Below are positions 19,841-44,160 of a stretch of 64,000 bases of DNA, piece after piece. The translations under genes were made by a program, and so were the position numbers. The stretch covers positions 3,036,001 through 3,100,000 of the forward strand of contig NZ_CP015519.1 of assembly GCF_001887775.1 (NCBI RefSeq), read 5' to 3'. The stretch comes from Syntrophotalea acetylenivorans (lineage in GTDB: Bacteria; Desulfobacterota; Desulfuromonadia; Desulfuromonadales; Syntrophotaleaceae). Each line of letters opens with the position of its first letter. Position 1 is the stretch's first letter. The notes under the pieces are model-generated. The model did not search any database, had not been told where the DNA came from, and worked only from the letters and a program-made list of their open reading frames with translations.

Positions 19841-19869
19841 TTGACAGCGGTGAATGGGTTCGTTATAGT
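19841..19869 (+). promoter_or_regulatory. Sigma-70 promoter of the TonB receptor gene
   Basis: TTGACA at 19841-19846, a 17-bp spacer, and TATAGT at 19864-19869: close to consensus. It reads toward the receptor start at 19998, leaving a leader of about 120 nt. The 24-bp operator-like palindrome starts three bases before the -10. Confidence 0.8.
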
Positions 19870-19884
19870 CGCGCGATTATAGCG
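19861..19884 (+). promoter_or_regulatory. ModE-like operator 1
   Basis: Half-sites CGTTATA and TATAGCG are separated by exactly 10 bp (GTCGCGCGAT). The reverse complement of the right half is CGCTATA, so the halves differ at one position, and the inner bases extend the symmetry to 10 of 12. Spacing and half-site match the ModE operator as I remember it from E. coli (CGTTATA-N10-CATAACG). It covers the -10 box, where a bound protein would repress. An identical half-site pair occurs at 25556-25579. The identity of the regulator is inferred; no modE gene is in the window. Confidence 0.75.
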
Positions 19885-19997
19885 CTAATTAAAAGTAGAA
19901 TTTGTTGTGAAATGTATTTTGGTCTCGGAAGGCTCTATACAAGGTTTGCGACCCATGGAGTCCCCAATAACGATGAAAGATGAAAACAGGAGGAACT

Positions 19998-21959
19998 ATG
20001 AGAACTGGTTGGTTTGCGGCATTGACCGCACTGGCTCTGCTAGCGACGCCTTTGGCGACCGGCACGGCTCTGGCTGCCGACGACGGTGTCTATCGTCTCG
20101 GCGAAGTTGTTGTTTCCGGTGAACAAGAGGGGGTCGAGGCCATCGGCACCACCCACAAGGTAACTGCCAAGGAAATCGAAACACGCGGCGTACGCACCCT
20201 CGACGAAGCCATCGACATGCTGCCCGGTGTGCAAGTCCGTACGGCTGCAGACGGTGCTCCGCGTATCGACATGCGCGGGTTCCGCACCCGTCACGTCAAG
20301 CTGTTGCTCAACGGTACACCCTTCAACGGCACCAACGACGGTCAGTTCGACCCTTCGTTGATTTCGGTGGAGAATATCGCCGAGATCACAGTCACCACCG
20401 GTGGCGGTTCCGAACTCTACGGTTCGGGTGGTAACGCCGGGATTATCAATATTGTCACCAAGAAGGGCACCAAAGGTGCTAACGGTTCCATGGGTGTTGA
20501 ACTGTCCGAGGTCGATGCCACCTTGTTGCGGGCCACCAGCTCCTACGGTACGGAAAAATACGATGTCTTTGTCAGTGGCAGCTACTACGAGCGTGATGCC
20601 TATAGGATGTCAAACCATTACGGCGAAGAACTAAATGAAGATGGCGACGAGCGGGAAAACAGCGACCGTGATCGTAAAAACTTCTTTGCCAACTTCGGTT
20701 ATCAACCGACCGACGCTACGCTGCTAGGGATGACCTTCAGCTATCTCAAAGGAGAGCGGGGTAAGCCGCCTATTACTCTTGAGGGTTACAATAGTAAGAA
20801 GGGGACGGGTGATGTTTTTGCCAAAACGATAAAATATCAACGGCAGGAAGACGAAGAATTCAACGTTCAGTTGGCCGCCAGCCACAACTTTGCCGGGCCT
20901 CTTAGTGTCAAGGGTTGGGCTTATTTTAATCGTCTTGATGTAGATGAGGAAGAGTTTGAAGATGACACTTATTCGACACTCAAAAACGGAAAAAGTGTTT
21001 ATTCCGAAACGGAAATCTCCGGTGCTAACCTGCAGTTGTCTTATGATACGCAGAATTCCGGTCGGGCGACTCTGGGTCTGATGGTGGAAAACGACGACTA
21101 TGAAAGCGAAGGAGATGATGGAGTAGAGATAGACAACGGAGATTTTCAGCTTTACTCGGCAAGCCTCGAATACGAAGTTTCCCCGATGGACAAACTCGGT
21201 GTGGTTCTCGGTGCGGGTGCTCACTTGCAGGATCGTGAAAGCGATAATGAAGAAGACTTTTCCTATCTTGTCGGTCTGACTTACGACCTGTCCGAGGGAA
21301 CCCGACTCAAGGCCTCTCACGCTCGCAAGGTGCGTTTCCCGACTATTCGTGACCTTTATGACACGGATGATGGCAAGGTGAACGAAGACCTAAAAGCGGA
21401 GACCACTTGGCATTACGAAGCTGGTATCGAGCAGGTTCTGCCGGCCAAGACCCTGTTGTCGGTAACCGGTTTCTATATCGATATCGAAGATTACATCGAG
21501 AAAGTCAATGATGTAAGGCAAAATTTCGATGAGTACGAATTCTACGGTGTGGAAGTCGGGGCGGAGAATCGTTACTTTGACCGGCTGTTCTTGCGTGTCA
21601 GCTATACCTACATGAGCACCGAGGATAAGTCGGACGATACCGAACGGGATGAGCTGCAGAATCGGCCCGAGCACAAGGTCACCCTTGAATCGACCTGTAG
21701 TCTGCCTTGGGGTCTTACCGCTTATGCAGGTGCTCAATACATGACCGACAACTATTATTACAGCGTTGACGGTAACGAAGAGCAGGACAAATTGTCGGAT
21801 ATCTTCCTGGTCGACTTCAAGCTCAATAAGGCGGCTGCCAACGGCGCTATCGATCTCTATGTCGGAGTCGACAACGTTTTCGACGAAGATTACGAGCAGA
21901 GCTACGGTTTCCCCTTGGCCGGCCGTACTTTTTATGGTGGCGCGACCTGGAAGTTCTAA
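19998..21959 (+). CDS. TonB-dependent outer-membrane receptor
   Basis: A 653-residue receptor. The signal peptide covers 1-27 (cleavage near TALA/ADD), and a TonB-box-like stretch LGEVVVSG lies near 33-40. A plug domain follows (TLDEAIDMLPGVQV, GGGSELYGSGGNAGIINIVTKKG), then a 22-strand-type barrel ending in phenylalanine (ATWKF). AGGAGG five bases upstream fixes the start. The ligand is unknown from sequence. The ModE-like operator and the tupA remnant suggest molybdate, tungstate or a chelate of them, and the nearby ExbB-ExbD-TonB could energise it. A haem or siderophore ligand remains possible. A strong terminator follows. Confidence 0.93.
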   Translation: MRTGWFAALTALALLATPLATGTALAADDGVYRLGEVVVSGEQEGVEAIGTTHKVTAKEIETRGVRTLDEAIDMLPGVQVRTAADGAPRIDMRGFRTRHVKLLLNGTPFNGTNDGQFDPSLISVENIAEITVTTGGGSELYGSGGNAGIINIVTKKGTKGANGSMGVELSEVDATLLRATSSYGTEKYDVFVSGSYYERDAYRMSNHYGEELNEDGDERENSDRDRKNFFANFGYQPTDATLLGMTFSYLKGERGKPPITLEGYNSKKGTGDVFAKTIKYQRQEDEEFNVQLAASHNFAGPLSVKGWAYFNRLDVDEEEFEDDTYSTLKNGKSVYSETEISGANLQLSYDTQNSGRATLGLMVENDDYESEGDDGVEIDNGDFQLYSASLEYEVSPMDKLGVVLGAGAHLQDRESDNEEDFSYLVGLTYDLSEGTRLKASHARKVRFPTIRDLYDTDDGKVNEDLKAETTWHYEAGIEQVLPAKTLLSVTGFYIDIEDYIEKVNDVRQNFDEYEFYGVEVGAENRYFDRLFLRVSYTYMSTEDKSDDTERDELQNRPEHKVTLESTCSLPWGLTAYAGAQYMTDNYYYSVDGNEEQDKLSDIFLVDFKLNKAAANGAIDLYVGVDNVFDEDYEQSYGFPLAGRTFYGGATWKF

Positions 21960-22109: not shown

Positions 22110-23294
22110 TCAGGGTCGGTTTTTTTTCGCAGCGTCGATTCCTCGTTCCACCAACCGATACACTTCCGGCAACGGCAGGCCGCAATCGATTGCCAGTTGG
22201 CGACAACTTTCATATTCCGGCACCGAGCGCAGTAGCACGTCTCCCTCATAGAAATGCTTGACCTGCGCTTTCCCGAGATTGGTGGTTACAGTACCCGGTT
22301 CGCTGTGCAGTTTGTAGCGGCTAGACTCCCGCCAGCGTACTCCTCCGGCGCTGCTTTCCCGCATTATGATTCGTGCCAGTTGTTCGGATAAATGGGGCGG
22401 GGCGATAACGGTCAAAGCTAAGCCTGGTCGATTCTTCTTCATCTGCAAGGCATTGTAACCGACATCAAAAGCTCCGGCTGTCAACAGGCTGTCCATCAGG
22501 GCGCCGAGCCATTCAGGGTTGGCGTCGTCTAGATGGGTTTCAAGGATCGCCACACGGTCCCGGTCGAGGGTTTCTTCTGCCCCTGTTTCACCGAGCAGGC
22601 CCCGCAGCAGGTTTGGTCGATCCCTCAGTTCCCGTTCCCCGGCTCCATAACCGGTTTTTCCCAGGATCATGGATGGCAGGGTGCCGAAGGTAGCGATTTC
22701 AGCGGCGATAGCCGCACCGGTAGGGGTGACCAGTTCGACTCCGGCAAAATCGTGGACTATCGGCAGGCCGTTAAGGATCTCCAGGGTAGCCGGGGCCGGC
22801 AGGGGAAAGCTGCCGTGGGCGCAGCGCACCGTGCCCCGGGTCATCGGCAGGGGGGTGCAGGCGACCTGCGGATTTCCCAGCAGATGCAAGCCGATGGCGG
22901 CACCGACAATATCGACGATGGAATCGAGCGCACCAACCTCGTGAAAATGGACCGTTTCCAGAGCAACGCCATGAATCCGGGCTTCCGCTTCACCGATGCG
23001 CCGAAAGATGCGCCGCGCCAGTTCTTTAACCGGAGAGGCCAGATCGCTGTCCATCAGCATGCGGTCGATGCCGCTCCAGGTGCGGTGATGGTGTTGCTCT
23101 TTGCAGTGCACGGTCAGTTTGCTGCCGGTAATGGCCTGGCGCTGAACGGTCTTCAGTTCCAGGCGGTAGCCGTCAACGGGTAGTTTCTGCAATTCAGCTT
23201 CGAGATCTGCCAGAGATAGTCCCAGATCGAGCAGCAGACCGAGAAACATGTCGCCGGAGATGCCGGAGAAGGTGTCGAGAAACAGGGTTTTCAT
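22110..23294 (-). CDS. larC: Nickel-pincer cofactor biosynthesis protein LarC
   Basis: LarC inserts nickel into the sulfurated pyridinium mononucleotide to finish the nickel-pincer cofactor, in a CTP-dependent reaction. The 394-residue protein is one continuous frame (in Lactobacillus it is made through a frameshift). It shows LFLDTFSGISGDMFLG at the start, a His-rich QHHHRT near 68-72 and HFHEVGALDSIVDIVG at 116-131. ATG at 23294 overlaps the larB stop by four bases. Neither larA nor larE is in the window, so the client enzyme is unknown. Seen: family and order; inferred: pathway completeness. Confidence 0.92.
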   Translation of the reverse strand: MKTLFLDTFSGISGDMFLGLLLDLGLSLADLEAELQKLPVDGYRLELKTVQRQAITGSKLTVHCKEQHHHRTWSGIDRMLMDSDLASPVKELARRIFRRIGEAEARIHGVALETVHFHEVGALDSIVDIVGAAIGLHLLGNPQVACTPLPMTRGTVRCAHGSFPLPAPATLEILNGLPIVHDFAGVELVTPTGAAIAAEIATFGTLPSMILGKTGYGAGERELRDRPNLLRGLLGETGAEETLDRDRVAILETHLDDANPEWLGALMDSLLTAGAFDVGYNALQMKKNRPGLALTVIAPPHLSEQLARIIMRESSAGGVRWRESSRYKLHSEPGTVTTNLGKAQVKHFYEGDVLLRSVPEYESCRQLAIDCGLPLPEVYRLVERGIDAAKKNRP

Positions 23295-24049
23295 GATGAA
23301 TTCCGTCGGTTGATGCGGGCGGCGGCGCAAGCGGCACCGAAACCGTTGTCAATGTTGACCACCGTGACCCCGCTGGCGCAGGAATTGAGCATGCCGAGCA
23401 GTGCAGCGATGCCGCCGAAGCTGGCTCCGTATCCGACCGAGGTCGGCACTGCGATGACCGGGGACGCCACCAGGCCGCCGATCACCGAAGGCAGAGCGCC
23501 TTCCATGCCGGCTACCACGATGACTACTGCTGCGCTGCGAAGCAGGTCCAGTCGATCGAAGAGGCGGTGAATCCCGGCGACTCCGACATCAACCAGTTCT
23601 TCCACCTCGTTGCCAAGCATACGCGCTGTCTCGGCTGCTTCCCGGGCCACGGGCAGGTCCGAGGTGCCGGCACAGACCACCAGGATCTTGCCAAGGCCGG
23701 TGATTTCAATCGGGTTCTGTATCAGGGAAAAAGTTCGAGCCTCGCTGTCATAAACACCTTGGGGATATTCAGCCAACAGTTGTGCGGCCTTATCCTCGTC
23801 GAGGCGGGTGATCAGCACGTTGCTGTCACGGCGCAGCATGGCCGCGACAATAGTAATCATTTGAATCGCAGTTTTGCTGGCCCCGAGAATCGTTTCCGGA
23901 GCGCCCTGACGCAGTTGCCGATGATGATCGAGGCAGGCAATGTCGAGGTCTTCGTAGGGTAGGGTGGCGAGTCGTTCCAGGGCCTGGTCGACGGAAACCT
24001 GGCCGTCGCTCAAGCTTTCCAGTAATTTTTTCAGGTTGTCGGGATTCAA
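23291..24049 (-). CDS. larB: Pyridinium-3,5-biscarboxylic acid mononucleotide synthase LarB
   Basis: LarB carboxylates nicotinic acid adenine dinucleotide and releases AMP, the first step to the nickel-pincer cofactor. The 252-residue protein has a helical N-terminal part and a PurE/AIR-carboxylase-like C-terminal domain from about 120 (GKILVVCAGTSDLPVAREA, VVIVVAGMEGALPSVIGGL and VPTSVGYGASFGGIAALLGM). It is co-translated with larC. A repeat-filled gap of about 210 bp separates it from the DRTGG gene upstream. Confidence 0.93.
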   Translation of the reverse strand: MNPDNLKKLLESLSDGQVSVDQALERLATLPYEDLDIACLDHHRQLRQGAPETILGASKTAIQMITIVAAMLRRDSNVLITRLDEDKAAQLLAEYPQGVYDSEARTFSLIQNPIEITGLGKILVVCAGTSDLPVAREAAETARMLGNEVEELVDVGVAGIHRLFDRLDLLRSAAVVIVVAGMEGALPSVIGGLVASPVIAVPTSVGYGASFGGIAALLGMLNSCASGVTVVNIDNGFGAACAAARINRRNSS

Positions 24050-25535: not shown

Positions 25536-25564
25536 TTGACTCAGCAATAGAAATTCGTTATATT
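25536..25564 (+). promoter_or_regulatory. Sigma-70 promoter of the ECF transporter operon
   Basis: TTGACT at 25536-25541, a 17-bp spacer, and TATATT at 25559-25564, reading toward the ATPase start at 25671 with a leader of about 100 nt. The layout repeats that of the TonB-receptor promoter: the operator starts three bases upstream of the -10 in both. The rest of the 25355-25670 gap shows no gene. Confidence 0.8.
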
Positions 25565-25579
25565 CCACCGGGTATAGCG
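25556..25579 (+). promoter_or_regulatory. ModE-like operator 2
   Basis: CGTTATA, ten bases (TTCCACCGGG), then TATAGCG. Both half-sites are identical to those at 19861-19884, while the spacer is different. Conserved half-sites with a free spacer are what a dimeric regulator site looks like. It overlaps the -10 of the ECF promoter. ModE assignment rests on consensus memory. Confidence 0.75.
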
Positions 25580-25670: not shown

Positions 25671-27029
25671 ATGGGCGTAATTTTACGATTGAAGAAGTTT
25701 TCCTTCACCTATCCGGAGGTGGAGGCGCCCGTTTTGCAGGACCTTAACCTGGAGGTCGAAGCCGGCCGTTGTTACTGTCTGACCGGGCCGACGGGTTCGG
25801 GAAAGACGACTTTGGCTCTGGCCCTCAAAGGGTTGTTAACTGCCGGACGGTACGAGGGCGAAATCGAGGTGCCTTCGGTAACTGAGTCGACCGACATGAA
25901 TGTCGGCATGGTACTGCAAGACCCGGAGGTTCAACTACTGACGAGCACGGTGGGTGCGGAGGTGGCCTTCGGTCTGGAAAACCTTTGTGTCGAACCTGCC
26001 GAGATGCCGGAGCGGGTTTCCGCTGCCGTACAGGCCGTCGGACTCGATAAACCGCTGGATTATCCGGTGGATAAGCTTTCCATGGGGCAGAAGTATCGCT
26101 TGCTCATTGCGGCATTACTGGTTATGAAGCCTCGGTTACTTATTCTAGATGAGCCCGGCGCCCAGCTCGACCCGGAAGGTCTGGAGCTTCTTCGTAAGTG
26201 CCTGCGTCGCCTCAAGCAGGACGGAGTCGCTGTTATTTTATGCGAACACCGTCCTGATTCGTTGCTGAGCGAAATCGATACCTTCTGGCAGCTTGATGGC
26301 AGCGGCAGTTTCGCCGAAGGACGCTACCGAGGGGAGGCGCTCGCTCCCTTGGCCCCTTCATCATCGGTCGCTGGAGAAGAGACGGTGCTGCAGGTTCAGG
26401 ATCTTTCCTTTGTCGGGGTCGGTGATCAGCCGGTCTGGTCGCAGGTCTCCTTTCGTGCCGAAAAAGGCCAGCGTTATGCCCTTACCGGTCTGAATGGCAC
26501 CGGCAAGACGACCTTGCTGCGCTGCCTGGCCGGCTTCCTCAGTCCGCACCAGGGAGAGGTACAGATTCTCGGCGGTGCTCCCGATGCCAACCGTTTGCGT
26601 GGCAGGCTAGGATGCCTGTTTCAGAATCCGCAGAAGCAGATCTTTGAAAATACCGTCGGCGATGAGGTGGCTTTTCCTCTGAAGCGCTTGGGGGTTAACA
26701 AGGGGACCGTCGAAGAGCGGGTCGAAGAAACCCTGGCAGCCTGCGGAATCAGCCATCTCATCGATCAGTCGCCCCACAAACTCAGCTACGGTCAGAAGCA
26801 TCTGGTGGCGTTGGCTTCGGTGCTGGCTCCACGCCCTGACTTGTTGTTTCTCGATGATCCTTTGGCCGGGCTGGATGATGGTCACAGCAGTAAGGTGATG
26901 GAGTTGCTGGTGCATTACAATAGGCAACACGGCACGACCATGCTCTGGACCTTCCACGATCCGGAGGCCTGGGAGGGGTGGGCTGATCAGGTGCTGCACC
27001 TTGAAGGAGGCCGTCTTGTTGTCAGTTAA
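25671..27029 (+). CDS. ECF-type ABC transporter ATPase, two fused nucleotide-binding domains
   Basis: 452 residues carrying two complete ABC domains, equal to a fused EcfA-EcfA' pair. Domain 1 has Walker A GPTGSGKT at 39-46, Q-loop Q83, a signature variant LSMGQ at 136-140 and Walker B LLILDEP near 156-162. Domain 2 has Walker A GLNGTGKT at 273-280, signature LSYGQ at 371-375 and Walker B LLFLDDP at 391-397, where the usual catalytic Glu is Asp. It would power the membrane complex made by the next two genes. The proposed start has only a weak ribosome site. Under ModE-like operator 2. Confidence 0.92.
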   Translation: MGVILRLKKFSFTYPEVEAPVLQDLNLEVEAGRCYCLTGPTGSGKTTLALALKGLLTAGRYEGEIEVPSVTESTDMNVGMVLQDPEVQLLTSTVGAEVAFGLENLCVEPAEMPERVSAAVQAVGLDKPLDYPVDKLSMGQKYRLLIAALLVMKPRLLILDEPGAQLDPEGLELLRKCLRRLKQDGVAVILCEHRPDSLLSEIDTFWQLDGSGSFAEGRYRGEALAPLAPSSSVAGEETVLQVQDLSFVGVGDQPVWSQVSFRAEKGQRYALTGLNGTGKTTLLRCLAGFLSPHQGEVQILGGAPDANRLRGRLGCLFQNPQKQIFENTVGDEVAFPLKRLGVNKGTVEERVEETLAACGISHLIDQSPHKLSYGQKHLVALASVLAPRPDLLFLDDPLAGLDDGHSSKVMELLVHYNRQHGTTMLWTFHDPEAWEGWADQVLHLEGGRLVVS

Positions 27030-27708
27030 ACTCTTTTCACCTAGAAAGGTCAGTTTGCCGTCGGCGTCCCTCGAGGGTCCTGCCCCGGCCGGTGATGCCA
27101 AGTGGGTTGGTCTACGAATGCTTCTGGCCCTGACCCTCTCCTGCCTGGCCTTTGCCGCCCGCACCATTCCCTTTCTGCTGGTGTTGACTACCGTCAACCT
27201 GGCTTTGCTCTGGTACTTGGGCAATGGCCAGATATCCCTGCGCCGAGAACTTAAAGCTTTCGTTTGGCAGACCCTGGTTATCCTGGCGCTCTATCTGATC
27301 CGGTTTCAGAACCTGACCGGCCTCTGGGGAGGCTTCCAGATTTCCTGGCAGCTGTTTTTGGCTCTGTTGCCGAGCATGACCTTCGTGCGCAGCACCTCTC
27401 AAACGCGCATCGTTCAGGCCCTGAATCGGGTCATGCCCTGCCGCACGGCTTTTGTGCTCAGTACCTGCCTCAAGTTTGCTCCCCATTTGTTGGCTGAGAT
27501 ACGCAGTATCTACGAAGGGCAGGTTTTGCGCGGTGCGCGCATCTTGCCCAGAGACCTGGCGAAACCCTGGCACTGGATCGATCTGTTGCATTGCGTGGTG
27601 GTCCCGGCGGTGGTGCAAAGCATGGCTTTGGCCGGAAATATCGCTTTAGCGGCGAGAGCCCGCGATTTTGGCAGTCAGCCCAAGCGCACCTGTTGGCCCG
27701 GGCTATAA
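27019..27708 (+). CDS. ECF transporter transmembrane coupling protein (EcfT-like)
   Basis: About 229 residues with five or so hydrophobic helices (roughly 35-50, 50-72, 85-103, 110-127 and 190-210). The C-terminal cytoplasmic part has two Ala-Arg-Gly-like coupling motifs, VLRGARIL and LAARARDFG, which in EcfT contact the two ATPases. The start is a TTG at 27019 (or 27016), placed 5-8 bases after AAGGAGG; the frame opens further upstream at TTG 27001 within the ATPase gene. It overlaps the ATPase 3' end. Substrate specificity lies in the next gene, not here. Confidence 0.88.
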   Translation: MSVKLFSPRKVSLPSASLEGPAPAGDAKWVGLRMLLALTLSCLAFAARTIPFLLVLTTVNLALLWYLGNGQISLRRELKAFVWQTLVILALYLIRFQNLTGLWGGFQISWQLFLALLPSMTFVRSTSQTRIVQALNRVMPCRTAFVLSTCLKFAPHLLAEIRSIYEGQVLRGARILPRDLAKPWHWIDLLHCVVVPAVVQSMALAGNIALAARARDFGSQPKRTCWPGL

Positions 27709-27765
27709 GTGATTCTGATAAGTAGATCTAAACGAGCCGCTGTTGCTCAGGAGAAAATCTCAATT

Positions 27766-28317
27766 ATGAATCCAGTTGTTGAACCAGCCGGCGGTCTGTT
27801 TCGTCTGTCCCTTAAGGATGCGCTTTTTATCGGCTTCTGTGCCGTTTTTGCGGTATTGGCCAGAATGATGCTGCGGCTGCATCTGCATATTTCCGGTCAT
27901 GCCATGCTGGTGACCGCCTTCTTTTTGTTATTGGCCCGGGGCAGCGTCCGCTACCGGTTCGCCGCCAGTTTTGCCGGTCTACTGGCCGGCAGCGCTTCGA
28001 TTTTTCTCGGGTTCGCCAAGAGCGGCCCCTTCATGCTGGTCAAGTATCTGGCGGTAGCCCTGGTCATCGATCTGGCCGGCCTGCTGATGCCGAATCTGTT
28101 TCGTAACTATTTCTGGTGTGCTCTGGTTGGTGGAAGTGCCGGCGCAACCAAGTTTTTTACCGCCTATAGTGTGAATTTTTTAGCCGGCATGGACCGTACG
28201 GTTAATTTTCAGGCGTCGCTGCTGGAAGCGGCTGGCGCGATCTTGTTCGGGGTACTCGGTGGTCTGTTGGTCCCCGTAGTTCTTCGCCGTTTGCATGCCT
28301 ACGGCGTCATATCGTAA
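27766..28317 (+). CDS. Putative ECF S-component (substrate-binding membrane protein)
   Basis: A 183-residue, very hydrophobic protein with about six membrane helices, the size and fold class of ECF substrate-capture proteins. It has no motif I can match to known S-components for biotin, thiamin, folate, riboflavin, cobalt or nickel. Notable residues include HLHISGHAMLVTAFFLLLARG near helix 2 and KFFTAYSVNFLAGMDR before the last helices. ATG 27766 is chosen with AGGAG upstream; the frame is open to GTG 27709. Position right after EcfT supports the role. With the ModE-like operator, a Mo/W-related ligand is the leading hypothesis. Confidence 0.75.
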   Translation: MNPVVEPAGGLFRLSLKDALFIGFCAVFAVLARMMLRLHLHISGHAMLVTAFFLLLARGSVRYRFAASFAGLLAGSASIFLGFAKSGPFMLVKYLAVALVIDLAGLLMPNLFRNYFWCALVGGSAGATKFFTAYSVNFLAGMDRTVNFQASLLEAAGAILFGVLGGLLVPVVLRRLHAYGVIS

Positions 28318-28353
28318 GGAACGGCACCTGGATGCCGTCAACAAGGTGACACA

Positions 28354-29094
28354 ATGAATGTATTGATCTGTATCGACGACACGGATAATCTCGAATCCCG
28401 CGGCACCGGTGAATTGGCCACCATTATGGCTGAAGAAATCGAACGCCGCTCCTGGGGGCGCTGCGACTTCGTTACCCGCCATCAATTGTTGGTCCATCCC
28501 GACGTGCCCTATACCTCCCATAATAGCTCCATGTGTTTTTCCGCAGATATCGATCCGACTATTCTCGATTCATTGATCACCTATGCCGGCGACTTTCTTC
28601 AGCAGGAGAGCGCCGAAGGCTCCGATCCGGGCTTGTGCGTGTCGGTGATGGAGCAATTGAACCAGCCCGAGGCTGTCATCGCTTTTGGTCATTCCGCCAA
28701 AAAGGAGGTGTTGACCAAACAGGCCGCTTATGACATGGCCGCCCAGCTCGGCGTACATCTTTCCGAGCATGGCGGCACCGGCCAAGGAGTGGTTGGGGCA
28801 TTGGCCGGTATCGGTCTGCGCCTGAGTGGCAACGACGGCCGGATGAAGGGTTGGCTGAAAATCCATACTGAGAATGGCTTGGCCACGGTTGCTGACATCA
28901 TGGCACAGACCTCTCTGGGCGGTGTGCGCACGATGGACGGCAAATTGTTGTCAGAAACAGAAATAGTTGAAGTGGAGAACAAACCGAAGGCTGTTCTGCT
29001 CGATGGCAAGATCTACATGATGGTTTCGCCGCATGCCGATGAAGGTCGGGCTCGTTGGCGGACTACTCCGCGCAGTCAACTGAAAAAGTTTTGA
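28354..29094 (+). CDS. IDDTD-motif protein resembling the N-terminal domain of TiaS
   Basis: 246 residues starting MNVLICIDDTDNLESRGTG. The IDDTD stretch recalls the start of archaeal tRNA(Ile2) agmatinylcytidine synthetase, but the protein is far shorter and the context is a transporter operon. Other features are SEHGGTGQGVVGALAGIGLRLSG near 142-164 and a C-terminal basic tail. Databases sometimes label relatives as ABC substrate-binding proteins, but no signal peptide is visible. It follows the S-component by 36 bp and probably closes the ECF operon. Function unknown. The stop codon overlaps the start of a palindromic repeat. Confidence 0.7.
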   Translation: MNVLICIDDTDNLESRGTGELATIMAEEIERRSWGRCDFVTRHQLLVHPDVPYTSHNSSMCFSADIDPTILDSLITYAGDFLQQESAEGSDPGLCVSVMEQLNQPEAVIAFGHSAKKEVLTKQAAYDMAAQLGVHLSEHGGTGQGVVGALAGIGLRLSGNDGRMKGWLKIHTENGLATVADIMAQTSLGGVRTMDGKLLSETEIVEVENKPKAVLLDGKIYMMVSPHADEGRARWRTTPRSQLKKF

Positions 29095-29218
29095 TGGCGT
29101 CGCAAAAAGTCCGCCCTGCGGCGTTACGGCGTTTTTTCAGGACCTCGACATACTAAATGTATGCCTTCGACCCTGAAAAACACCAGGCCTTGCAGGACGA
29201 AATTTTTGCTTAGCCATC
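29093..29218. repeat. Palindromic element, family A copy 1
   Basis: About 126 bp from GATGGCGTCGCAAAAAGTCC to AATTTTTGCTTAGCCATC, an imperfect palindrome around CGACATACTAAATGTATGCC. Nearly the same sequence repeats 18 bp later (copy 2) and at 48580-48705. Terminal bases GATGGC and GCCATC are inverted, like a miniature element. The first two bases belong to the stop codon of the upstream gene. Confidence 0.85.
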
Positions 29219-29236
29219 CTATGTGTAGTTAACGGT

Positions 29237-29362
29237 GATGGCGTCGCAAAAAGTCCGCTTTGAGGCGTTACGGCGTATTTTCAGGACTTCGACATACTGG
29301 ATGTATGCCTTCGCCCCTGAAAAACACCAGGTCTTGCAGGACGAAGCTTTTGGTTAGCCACC
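29237..29362. repeat. Palindromic element, family A copy 2
   Basis: Starts GATGGCGTCGCAAAAAGTCC and ends TTTTGGTTAGCCACC; central CGACATACTGGATGTATGCC. Direct tandem neighbour of copy 1. Confidence 0.85.
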
Positions 29363-29406
29363 CTACGAGCTTTTGCGAGTACATCAAGTTTTGAAAGGAG
29401 TTTCCT

Positions 29407-29610
29407 ATGTGGTTGAAGGATACCCAGGGTAAGAAGGCGTTTCGTCACGGTCATGAAGCTTTTAGCCTGGCCAGCGAGGCGGCTGCGGAATGTGGTGATT
29501 TTCGTCCGGATGTCGAGGAAGAGTGGGTGGCGGATGAAGAGCGCTCCTGCTACAACTGCCGGTTGCGGCGCTGGACCGCCGAATCCTTTGTCTGTCTATT
29601 GCCGGCCTGA
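29407..29610 (+). CDS. Small Cys-motif protein, unknown function
   Basis: 67 residues with AAAGGAG at good spacing before the ATG, so it is likely translated. The C-terminus has a compact cysteine cluster, SCYNCRLRRWTAESFVC (C-x2-C-x11-C), plus a single Cys near 29, suggesting metal binding. The middle is acidic (DFRPDVEEEWVADEE). I do not recognise the family. It is followed by the Asp-repeat protein after 28 bp and may share its transcript. Confidence 0.6.
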   Translation: MWLKDTQGKKAFRHGHEAFSLASEAAAECGDFRPDVEEEWVADEERSCYNCRLRRWTAESFVCLLPA

Positions 29611-30644: not shown

Positions 30645-31340
30645 ATGGAAAGTCTCGTTGCTTTTTTGAGCAAAGCCGGTCCTATTGGCATTGCCATTGT
30701 CGGCTCATCGGTAATTGCGCTGTTTATCATTATCGAACGCTGCTGGGCCTTTCGCCAATTGCGACTCAAGGATGCCCGGGTTTTGCACCGGTTGCGTAAG
30801 CGGGTTACCGAAGGATCCTATACCGAAGCCATGGCCTTACTGCGGGAGGAATCTCATCCTTTGGCCATCGCCATGACGCCGATACTAACCCGCCTCGCCG
30901 GGTCACAACGGACCACGCGCGCCGCTCTGGAAAAATCTATTGCCCACGTCGCAGCCCGTGAAATTCGCCAGATGGAGCGATTTTTACCCACCCTGTTTTT
31001 GATCTCCAGCGTAACACCGCTGCTCGGTCTATTCGGTACCGTTACCGGCATGATCAAGGCCTTTCAGGCCATTCAACATCTCGGCGGCAAGGTCAATGCC
31101 TCGGTTCTGGCCGGCGGTATCTGGGAAGCCATGTTGACAACCGCTCTTGGTCTCGGGGTTGCGATTCCGGCCATGGTGGCCCACAACTATCTACAGGGCA
31201 AGGTGCATGTGGTGGTAGCCGACATCAAGGAAGAGTCGGGAGTATTGCTCGACGAGCTGGAAGAGGCCGGTTGCCTGAATTCGACGAACAAGCCCGCTTC
31301 GGTTCATGAGAGACACGCCGCTCAACGGGAGAATGGCTGA
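30645..31340 (+). CDS. exbB: ExbB/TolQ-family proton channel protein
   Basis: 231 residues, MotA/TolQ/ExbB family, with three membrane helices (about 12-30, 110-135 and 155-180) and the typical TPLLGLFGTVTGMIKAFQAI motif near 125-145. With ExbD it forms the proton-driven motor for TonB at the inner membrane. AGGGAG precedes the ATG. The stop overlaps the exbD start (TGATG). TolQ is an alternative, but the tonB-like gene downstream and the absence of tolA/tolB/pal favour ExbB. Confidence 0.88.
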   Translation: MESLVAFLSKAGPIGIAIVGSSVIALFIIIERCWAFRQLRLKDARVLHRLRKRVTEGSYTEAMALLREESHPLAIAMTPILTRLAGSQRTTRAALEKSIAHVAAREIRQMERFLPTLFLISSVTPLLGLFGTVTGMIKAFQAIQHLGGKVNASVLAGGIWEAMLTTALGLGVAIPAMVAHNYLQGKVHVVVADIKEESGVLLDELEEAGCLNSTNKPASVHERHAAQRENG

Positions 31341-31735
31341 TGGATATCCCGGTACGGACCAAAAGCACCGGGCTTAACCTGACTCCGCTTATCGACATCG
31401 TCTTTTTGTTGCTGGTGTTTTTTCTTTTGACCACCCAGTTTATCGAAGAAGACGGTATCGGAGTCAAACTGCCCAGTTCCAACTCTGTCACCACCCGCGA
31501 TCGAGATGAGGTAGCCATAGCCATTACCAAAAAAGGGGATCTCTTTGTCAAGGGGCAACGATTGCCCCTCGCCAGCCTGACCGCTAAGTTGGAACAAGTT
31601 CTTGGCGCCGATACAACGGTTGTCGTGCGAGGAGACCGTGAAGTGGCCCTGCAGACCTTGGTCTCGGTGATGGAAAAGGCCAAAGAAGCCGGGGCCGCCC
31701 GGCTGGTGGTCGCAACTCTTCAAGAGGGTAACTGA
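31340..31735 (+). CDS. exbD: ExbD/TolR-family protein
   Basis: 131 residues with a short cytoplasmic N-terminus, one membrane helix at about 12-33 containing the conserved Asp in NLTPLIDIVFLLLVFFLL, and a periplasmic domain with VVVRGDREVALQTLVSVM. Partner of ExbB in proton-driven energy transfer. Translationally coupled to exbB; tonB starts 3 bp later. Confidence 0.9.
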   Translation: MDIPVRTKSTGLNLTPLIDIVFLLLVFFLLTTQFIEEDGIGVKLPSSNSVTTRDRDEVAIAITKKGDLFVKGQRLPLASLTAKLEQVLGADTTVVVRGDREVALQTLVSVMEKAKEAGAARLVVATLQEGN

Positions 31736-31738
31736 GGT

Positions 31739-32440
31739 ATGGTAGCCAGGCAACGATGGGCCTTGGGAGGCTCTCTGCTCATACATGCGGCTCTGGTGTT
31801 GCTTCTTGGTGCCAGTCTGATGACTCCCCAGCGAATCGTTAATCGTATCGAAATCGATCTTGAAGGAGTGGCCGCTCCCAACCGGGCACTCGGTGTGCAG
31901 ACCCCGAACCCTTCGCAGATTCCCCATCAGCCTACCACCGCAGCTGTGCCGGTTCAGACTACGGTACCCATGCACCTGCAGATGCCGCAGGTGGTACCGC
32001 CGCGTCCAGCGACCAGTTTCGATGCCGACGCCTCTCTGGTCGCCCCGGCGGCTCCAGCACTGCCCGGCAGCCCTGCGGTTGCCTTACAACGACCGGTTGG
32101 AGGTACTGCGGGCGGGGGAAGTGGAAAGCATGATACTGGACGCGGCTCTGCTCTTGATGGGTATCGCAACAGGGTTCGTATGCATATCGATCGGGCCAAA
32201 CGATATCCGAAGATTGCCCAGCAACGGCGTATCGAAGGGATGGCTGTCGTTTCCTTTCGGCTTAGTTCCGCCGGTAAAGTCATTGCTGGCCCAGACCTGG
32301 TCAAGGGGTCCGGCTACGGTCTGATCGACAGAGCTTCTCTGCGAGCGGTCACCCGGGGGGCTCCCTATCCTAAATATCCCGGGCCTGCAGATCCCGCCGG
32401 TCATGCTTTTGAAGTGCCGGTGCGCTTTTATCTGCGGTAA
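31739..32440 (+). CDS. tonB: TonB-like energy-transducing protein
   Basis: 233 residues: an N-terminal signal-anchor helix at about 8-25, a Pro-rich periplasmic linker (about 45-125), and a TonB C-terminal domain from about 150 (YPKIAQQRRIEGMAVVSFRL through PKYPGP to EVPVRFYLR). It spans the periplasm to contact outer-membrane receptors. It could serve the receptor at 19998, 10 kb away, though genomes of this group usually have several TonB systems. No ModE-like box was seen upstream of exbB. Confidence 0.88.
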   Translation: MVARQRWALGGSLLIHAALVLLLGASLMTPQRIVNRIEIDLEGVAAPNRALGVQTPNPSQIPHQPTTAAVPVQTTVPMHLQMPQVVPPRPATSFDADASLVAPAAPALPGSPAVALQRPVGGTAGGGSGKHDTGRGSALDGYRNRVRMHIDRAKRYPKIAQQRRIEGMAVVSFRLSSAGKVIAGPDLVKGSGYGLIDRASLRAVTRGAPYPKYPGPADPAGHAFEVPVRFYLR

Positions 32441-43756: not shown

Positions 43757-43852
43757 GGCCAGAAGTCTTTCGGTCCTTGCCGTTGGGCAAAATAAAAACG
43801 CCACGGTCGGTTGCGGGACACGTGACGATAGAAACGGTAATCGGCTCTAGTC

Positions 43853-43942
<90 letters not shown>

Positions 43943-44160
43943 CTGTCGATGCTGACATTGTATAGTATCTTTCCGGCGTACGGTAATTTTTGTCACCGCT
44001 GTCGGTAGCCGTGACTCTATCGGAAGGGGGTCGATTCTGTCAAGGCGAGGGGGCGGTAGTGACGACATTTGTCCTTTACAGCCTTCCAGCGGCGTACTAA
44101 AATTTCCTACTTCATTTTCCGCTCCATACATCTGTTTGCTCCAACACGGAATTCGCCACC

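Follow-up and report, generated by a model that had tools for sequence, protein, structure and literature searches.

Known uptake of molybdenum and tungsten (Mo/W) proceeds through ATP-binding cassette (ABC) importers with binding proteins or through permeases, and the two metals limit many anaerobic conversions, among them aldehyde, formate, acetylene and benzoyl-CoA chemistry. Growth of Pelobacter cultures is limited by the trace elements tungstate and molybdate (PMC4275255), and the P. carbinolicus genome paper pointed out receptors close to molybdopterin riboswitches and proposed a role in metal transport (PMC3543383), a remark that is the nearest published hint we found. An earlier sequence-only reading of the DNA analysed here knew of no energy-coupling factor (ECF) system for Mo/W; we too found no ECF or TonB system for these metals in the open-licence literature, which is weak evidence of novelty. 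The present locus lies in a 64,000-nucleotide stretch of Syntrophotalea acetylenivorans (hereafter the window; contig NZ_CP015519.1, positions 3,036,001 to 3,100,000) and comprises an ECF operon and a TonB-dependent receptor gene, each preceded by a ModE-like operator. With a probability of about 0.75, we propose that operon and receptor constitute one system, a ModE-repressed, TonB-energised ECF importer for tungsten and/or molybdenum. This would be a previously unnamed bacterial uptake system, tied to Mo/W by genomic evidence in two phyla. Gene content, synteny, the fold of the S-component EcfS, the relation of the IDDTD protein to TiaS, the operators and the riboswitches in relatives were all computed here. 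The features of the locus are:

19841..19869, + strand: receptor promoter, TTGACA-17-TATAGT, from the sequence
19861..19884, + strand: ModE-like operator CGTTATAGTCGCGCGATTATAGCG, a perfect match overlapping the receptor -10
19980..21959, + strand: TonB-dependent outer-membrane receptor, 659 aa, in most relatives directly 5' of ecfAA
25536..25564, + strand: ECF operon promoter, TTGACT-17-TATATT, from the sequence
25556..25579, + strand: ModE-like operator CGTTATATTCCACCGGGTATAGCG, a perfect match overlapping the ECF operon -10
25671..27029, + strand: EcfAA, 452 aa, two fused ECF-type ATPases, from profile matches
~27019..27708, + strand: EcfT transmembrane coupling protein, TTG start after AAGGAGG, from the sequence, CbiQ-matching orthologues and synteny
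~27766..28317, + strand: EcfS (S-component), 183 aa, with R37, G44-H45 and D102 conserved
28354..29094, + strand: IDDTD protein, 246 aa, a stand-alone TiaS TCKD (kinase) domain with a C-terminal part
29407..29610, + strand: small Cys protein, 67 aa, CYNCRLRRW...C
30645..31340, + strand: ExbB-like protein, accessory and missing in some relatives, named by sequence reading and synteny
31340..31735, + strand: ExbD-like protein, accessory, named likewise
31739..32440, + strand: TonB-like protein, accessory, named likewise

The motif CGNTATA-N10-TATANCG occurs in three perfect copies in the 3,218,469-base genome, against 0.02-0.11 expected from the base or dinucleotide composition of the window, and all three lie upstream of transport genes, namely the receptor gene, the ECF operon and wtpA, which encodes a tungstate-binding protein and scores above the WtpA model cut-off. 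The ModE-like operator of the window is therefore more than chance. At the receptor gene and the ECF operon the left half-site overlaps the promoter -10, and the genome holds a full-length ModE gene (C1:1705078-1705794) whose product has a ModE-type helix-turn-helix, scoring 95.4 bits against the TIGR00637 cut-off of 98.5, and two TOBE domains; both an operator within the promoter and a full-length regulator are thus present, as in a ModE regulon, and ModE would bind and repress there. The published ModE consensus is ATCGCTATATA-N6-TATATAACGAT, and a ModE regulon has been predicted in Geobacter sulfurreducens (PMC2700814). Among relatives ModE sites lie ahead of the receptor gene or ecfAA, most receptor promoters carrying one with at most one mismatch, and a perfect site heads the Bacillota Fec-type/IDDTD operon L062.

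A second, independent regulator ties the IDDTD operons to Mo/W, namely the riboswitch RF01055, whose class, with molybdenum-cofactor (Moco) and tungsten-cofactor (Tuco) types, was described by Regulski et al. 2008 (PMC2408646). It scores above gathering in 26 of the 64 IDDTD loci scanned, and in 22 of these 26 it stands first in a series of same-strand genes that continues without a break to IDDTD. Geomonas operons of the order IDDTD-EcfAA-T-S-receptor are headed by it as well (171 bases before IDDTD in L042, 101 bases in L056). A riboswitch alignment, in which only L073 has an extra hairpin of ~20 nt, hints at the P3-less, tungsten-cofactor type for the other loci but is too coarse for a firm assignment. 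There is no RF01055 within the window; the genome has four copies elsewhere, one of them ahead of an AOR-like gene. In this genome RF01055 also lies ahead of a second TonB receptor gene (L114:538-6276); behind that gene lie a ResB-like one and a gene that fuses a sulfite-oxidase-fold domain to a tetrapyrrole methylase. Control by B12, thiamin pyrophosphate (TPP) or biotin, which the sequence-only reading had named as contrary evidence, was not found for the operons in the loci scanned, where one TPP riboswitch lies ~7.6 kb and one cobalamin riboswitch ~8.5 kb away from IDDTD. The window itself has a TPP riboswitch on the minus strand at 43842-43946.

A survey of 88 genomes of the order, each at least 90% complete, found 15 with EcfS and 17 with IDDTD; each of the 15 has IDDTD adjacent to EcfS, and 71 of the 88 have neither (Fisher p ~4e-15, uncorrected for kinship). 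A profile search for IDDTD across GTDB genomes brought up at least 201 relatives, from which 80 loci were taken, in Geobacterales, Bacillota (Syntrophomonas, Sporomusa, Clostridium magnum, Neobacillus, Pelotomaculum), Shewanella and others. The gene order receptor-EcfAA-EcfT-EcfS-IDDTD is kept in relatives, often followed by ExbB-ExbD-TonB. Neighbour clustering, which took in 93 IDDTD loci, gave FecB-type importer genes in 31 and FecCD-type in 30, a molybdenum-storage-like (MosB-like) protein in 17 (E 1.5e-73 to MosB in the PDB), TupA in 11, TupB in 9, MoeA in 6 and MOT1-like genes in 4; the TupA/TupB, MoeA and MOT1 labels come from a reading of cluster representatives, and the TupA-like, FecB and FecCD assignments were checked by profile. 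The binding protein of one Fec-type IDDTD operon matches HI_1472 (MolA, which binds molybdate and tungstate) at 1.6e-27, a match surpassed only by that to an unnamed binding protein. One stretch (L118) lines up AOR, ThiF, ModE, receptor-EcfAA-T-S-IDDTD, genes for a TonB-domain protein and a porin, and TupABC-like genes; a storage-protein-like gene lies close by. The checks proposed by the sequence-only reading thus came out in its favour, since EcfS and IDDTD co-occur and the operons adjoin ModE sites, Moco/Tuco riboswitches and Mo/W genes; together with the three operators of this genome these results support its proposal of an ECF transporter for a Mo/W-related ligand. Sulfite-oxidase-fold (Oxidored_molyb) lipoproteins open some Fec-type IDDTD operons, while Big_5-domain proteins open those of Bacillota (L036, L044, L045, L049, L064); several of the Big_5 proteins adjoin large S-layer-type proteins, and they possibly take the place of the outer-membrane receptor.

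By its ATPase, its T-component and its S-component fold the window system is a predicted ECF transporter. The four ORFs that the sequence-only reading had joined in one operon were all found, and its proposed extent holds for these genes but leaves out the receptor gene (19980-21959), which lies 5.7 kb upstream and has the same operator, and the small Cys gene (29407-29610). The ATPase it had read as a fused pair contains two ABC_tran stretches whose best profile matches are ECF_ATPase and CbiO, below the equivalog cut-offs TIGR04520/04521. EcfT of the window has no Pfam match, but its naming is borne out by the orthologues, nine of nine tested matching CbiQ (PF02361) over cut-off. No periplasmic binding-protein gene was recognised within the ECF operon. 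The receptor matches TIGR01785 over residues 40-659 of 659, a full barrel, and also TIGR01783, scoring under the subfamily cut-off in both cases. EcfS, for which the sequence-only reading knew no match among vitamin, nickel or cobalt S-components, has no family in Pfam or NCBIfam, and its profile matched no PDB sequence. Relatives came from a fold search with its AlphaFold model (pLDDT 83.6), in which the best solved-structure matches are all S-components, the closest being YkoE (5EDL, TM 0.69), then ThiT, PanT and RibU, with probability 1.00 but E only 3e-3. The YkoE family PF09819 weakly matches 9 of 26 EcfS family members and does not match the window protein, which is only distantly like YkoE and falls outside that family.

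The IDDTD protein, earlier likened to the N-terminus of TiaS, an archaeal tRNA enzyme, does resemble it by both profile and fold. Its model (pLDDT 94.2) finds TiaS and P. furiosus 3U02 as solved relatives, and it aligns with TiaS over residues 1-157 only, the remaining TiaS parts being missing. D8 and D9 are invariant in the 68 alignment rows, and T18, present in 64 of 68, is aligned with T18 of TiaS, the residue that becomes self-phosphorylated. With a TiaS-type kinase domain and conserved D8, D9 and T18, ATP-dependent phosphotransfer is likely for this protein. It scores 39.6 of 600 bits against the full TiaS profile (residues 1-157) and 46.8 of 255.8 bits (E 2e-12) against TIGR03280, methanogenesis marker protein 11, and identity with either was rejected since both scores are far under cut-off; a narrowed literature search on methanogenesis marker 11 gave nothing relevant. 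Because IDDTD also adjoins TupABC-like or storage-protein genes lacking a dedicated importer (L081, L085, L090), it probably acts on general Mo/W handling rather than on one transporter. The small Cys protein family adjoins IDDTD in 57 of 92 loci. Syntrophomonas-type genomes have three tandem IDDTD paralogues (L070:6184-8449; L079:8456-10762). In the window, IDDTD and the small Cys gene are separated by two tandem copies of a repeat of ~140 bases (29095-29365), of which the genome contains at least 44 copies; a similar repeat of ~140 bases also precedes ecfAA in L022.

From this material we infer ModE binding, the direction of control, transport and its ligand, the pairing with TonB and the IDDTD reaction as follows. 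When Mo/W are plentiful, oxyanion-loaded ModE would occupy the -10 boxes and keep both promoters off. When they are short, the receptor, which probably draws its energy from the adjacent ExbBD-TonB, would carry a Mo/W-containing ligand over the outer membrane; EcfS would take it without a periplasmic binding protein, EcfT and the fused ATPase would drive its import into the cytoplasm, and IDDTD and the small Cys protein would work on what has been imported or at an early stage of Mo/W use. Metal supply is suggested as the purpose by the ModE control, and a large or very scarce ligand by the presence of a receptor. Of the conceivable transported forms (chelate, oxyanion, cofactor), a Mo/W complex is slightly favoured over a bare oxyanion. 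Several points weigh against this proposal. The sites and riboswitches indicate Mo/W-responsive control and not the identity of the ligand, and uptake, binding and regulation are predictions from sequence; the operon is patchily distributed, with 15 carriers among 88 genomes of the order, and has no recognisable genes for chelator biosynthesis, a ModE site is not recognisable in L028, and the nearest solved relative of EcfS, a distant one, is a thiamin-type S-component.

A more specific version, which we hold tentatively and at somewhat short of even odds, has as ligand a tungsten or molybdenum complex with an organic carrier, either a tungstophore/molybdophore or a scavenged cofactor, from which IDDTD would free or activate the metal in an ATP-dependent reaction. 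If true, it would mean a new route of Mo/W acquisition and a new enzyme family common to many Mo/W-using bacteria. More doubtful is a bare oxyanion or thio-oxyanion (tungstate, molybdate, thiotungstate), which would make the system the ECF-type equivalent of Mod, Tup, Wtp and MolABC, its receptor serving very low concentrations; our proposal, which leaves the form open, includes this as a sub-case. Oxyanions are possible ligands given the MolA-like character of the alternative importer in IDDTD operons; TupAB and MOT1-like carriers adjoin IDDTD, and the conserved R37, H45 and K/R129 of EcfS could hold an anion. So small an anion, however, seldom needs a TonB receptor, WtpA is already present and co-regulated, and we know of no ECF S-component for an oxyanion.

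We consider it improbable that the ligand is instead a pterin, with intact or dephosphorylated molybdopterin or Tuco being imported and re-phosphorylated by IDDTD in the manner of vitamin importer-kinase pairs. The kinase-type domain of IDDTD would suit such salvage, as would the cofactor sensing of the riboswitch class ahead of the relatives' operons, the Oxidored_molyb lipoproteins as first genes of some Fec-type operons and the fact that vitamins are the usual cargo of ECF S-components. On the other hand, it is the oxyanion that ModE senses, and of the perfect ModE sites in this genome the remaining one controls tungstate uptake, while molybdenum-storage and TupAB genes adjoin IDDTD. Moreover, MoaA was found in all 24 IDDTD genomes tested (23 over cut-off), so that these are not auxotrophs and cofactor salvage is not required, which rules out its obligate form.

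Import of nickel, by analogy with ECF-type nickel importers, for the LarBC nickel-pincer cofactor pathway is hardly credible: LarC and LarB lie between receptor and ECF operon (22110-24049), with a BioD-like gene also placed there in close relatives, but this adjacency, seen in L020 and L022-L024 and in close relatives only, is not found in the L027-L029 stretches, where receptor-ECF-IDDTD persists, and the regulators are those of Mo/W, so that nickel transport was rejected. Equally implausible is an importer of thiamin or another vitamin, of the YkoE kind and near Mo/W genes by chance, which the fold of EcfS and the weak PF09819 matches of its family might suggest and which was rejected on account of the absent family match of the window protein and the lack of any vitamin element, TPP included, adjoining these operons in the 64 loci scanned, RF01055 and ModE sites recurring in several lineages.

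Should the proposed importer prove true, ECF transporters, here joined to an outer-membrane receptor, would gain a class of substrate, and it would suggest that some Mo/W enters cells in a form whose size or rarity makes porins inadequate; the small Cys protein and IDDTD would offer a testable handle on an unrecognised Mo/W-handling step in Desulfuromonadia, Bacillota and others. The system shares with the group I ECF transporters CbiMNQO, NikMNQO and YkoEDC dedicated genes for A, T and S within a single operon, a pair of ABC halves, a CbiQ-type T-component in orthologues and the S-component fold, while differing from them in its unnamed S family, its Mo/W regulation and its TonB receptor and IDDTD partners. 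With ModABC, TupABC, WtpABC and MolABC it has in common the apparent metal and control by ModE or a Moco/Tuco riboswitch, and TupAB and MolA-like genes share the neighbourhood of IDDTD systems; it differs from all four in its ECF architecture, its lack of a periplasmic binding protein and its outer-membrane receptor. Of its partners, IDDTD aligns over the first ~157 residues with TiaS, the tRNA-Ile2 agmatidine synthetase (3AMT, 4RVZ), and has only 246 residues and none of the other TiaS domains; methanogenesis marker protein 11 (TIGR03280) and 3U02 are TiaS-like too and match IDDTD weakly by profile or fold, whereas IDDTD itself stays far under the TIGR03280 cut-off.

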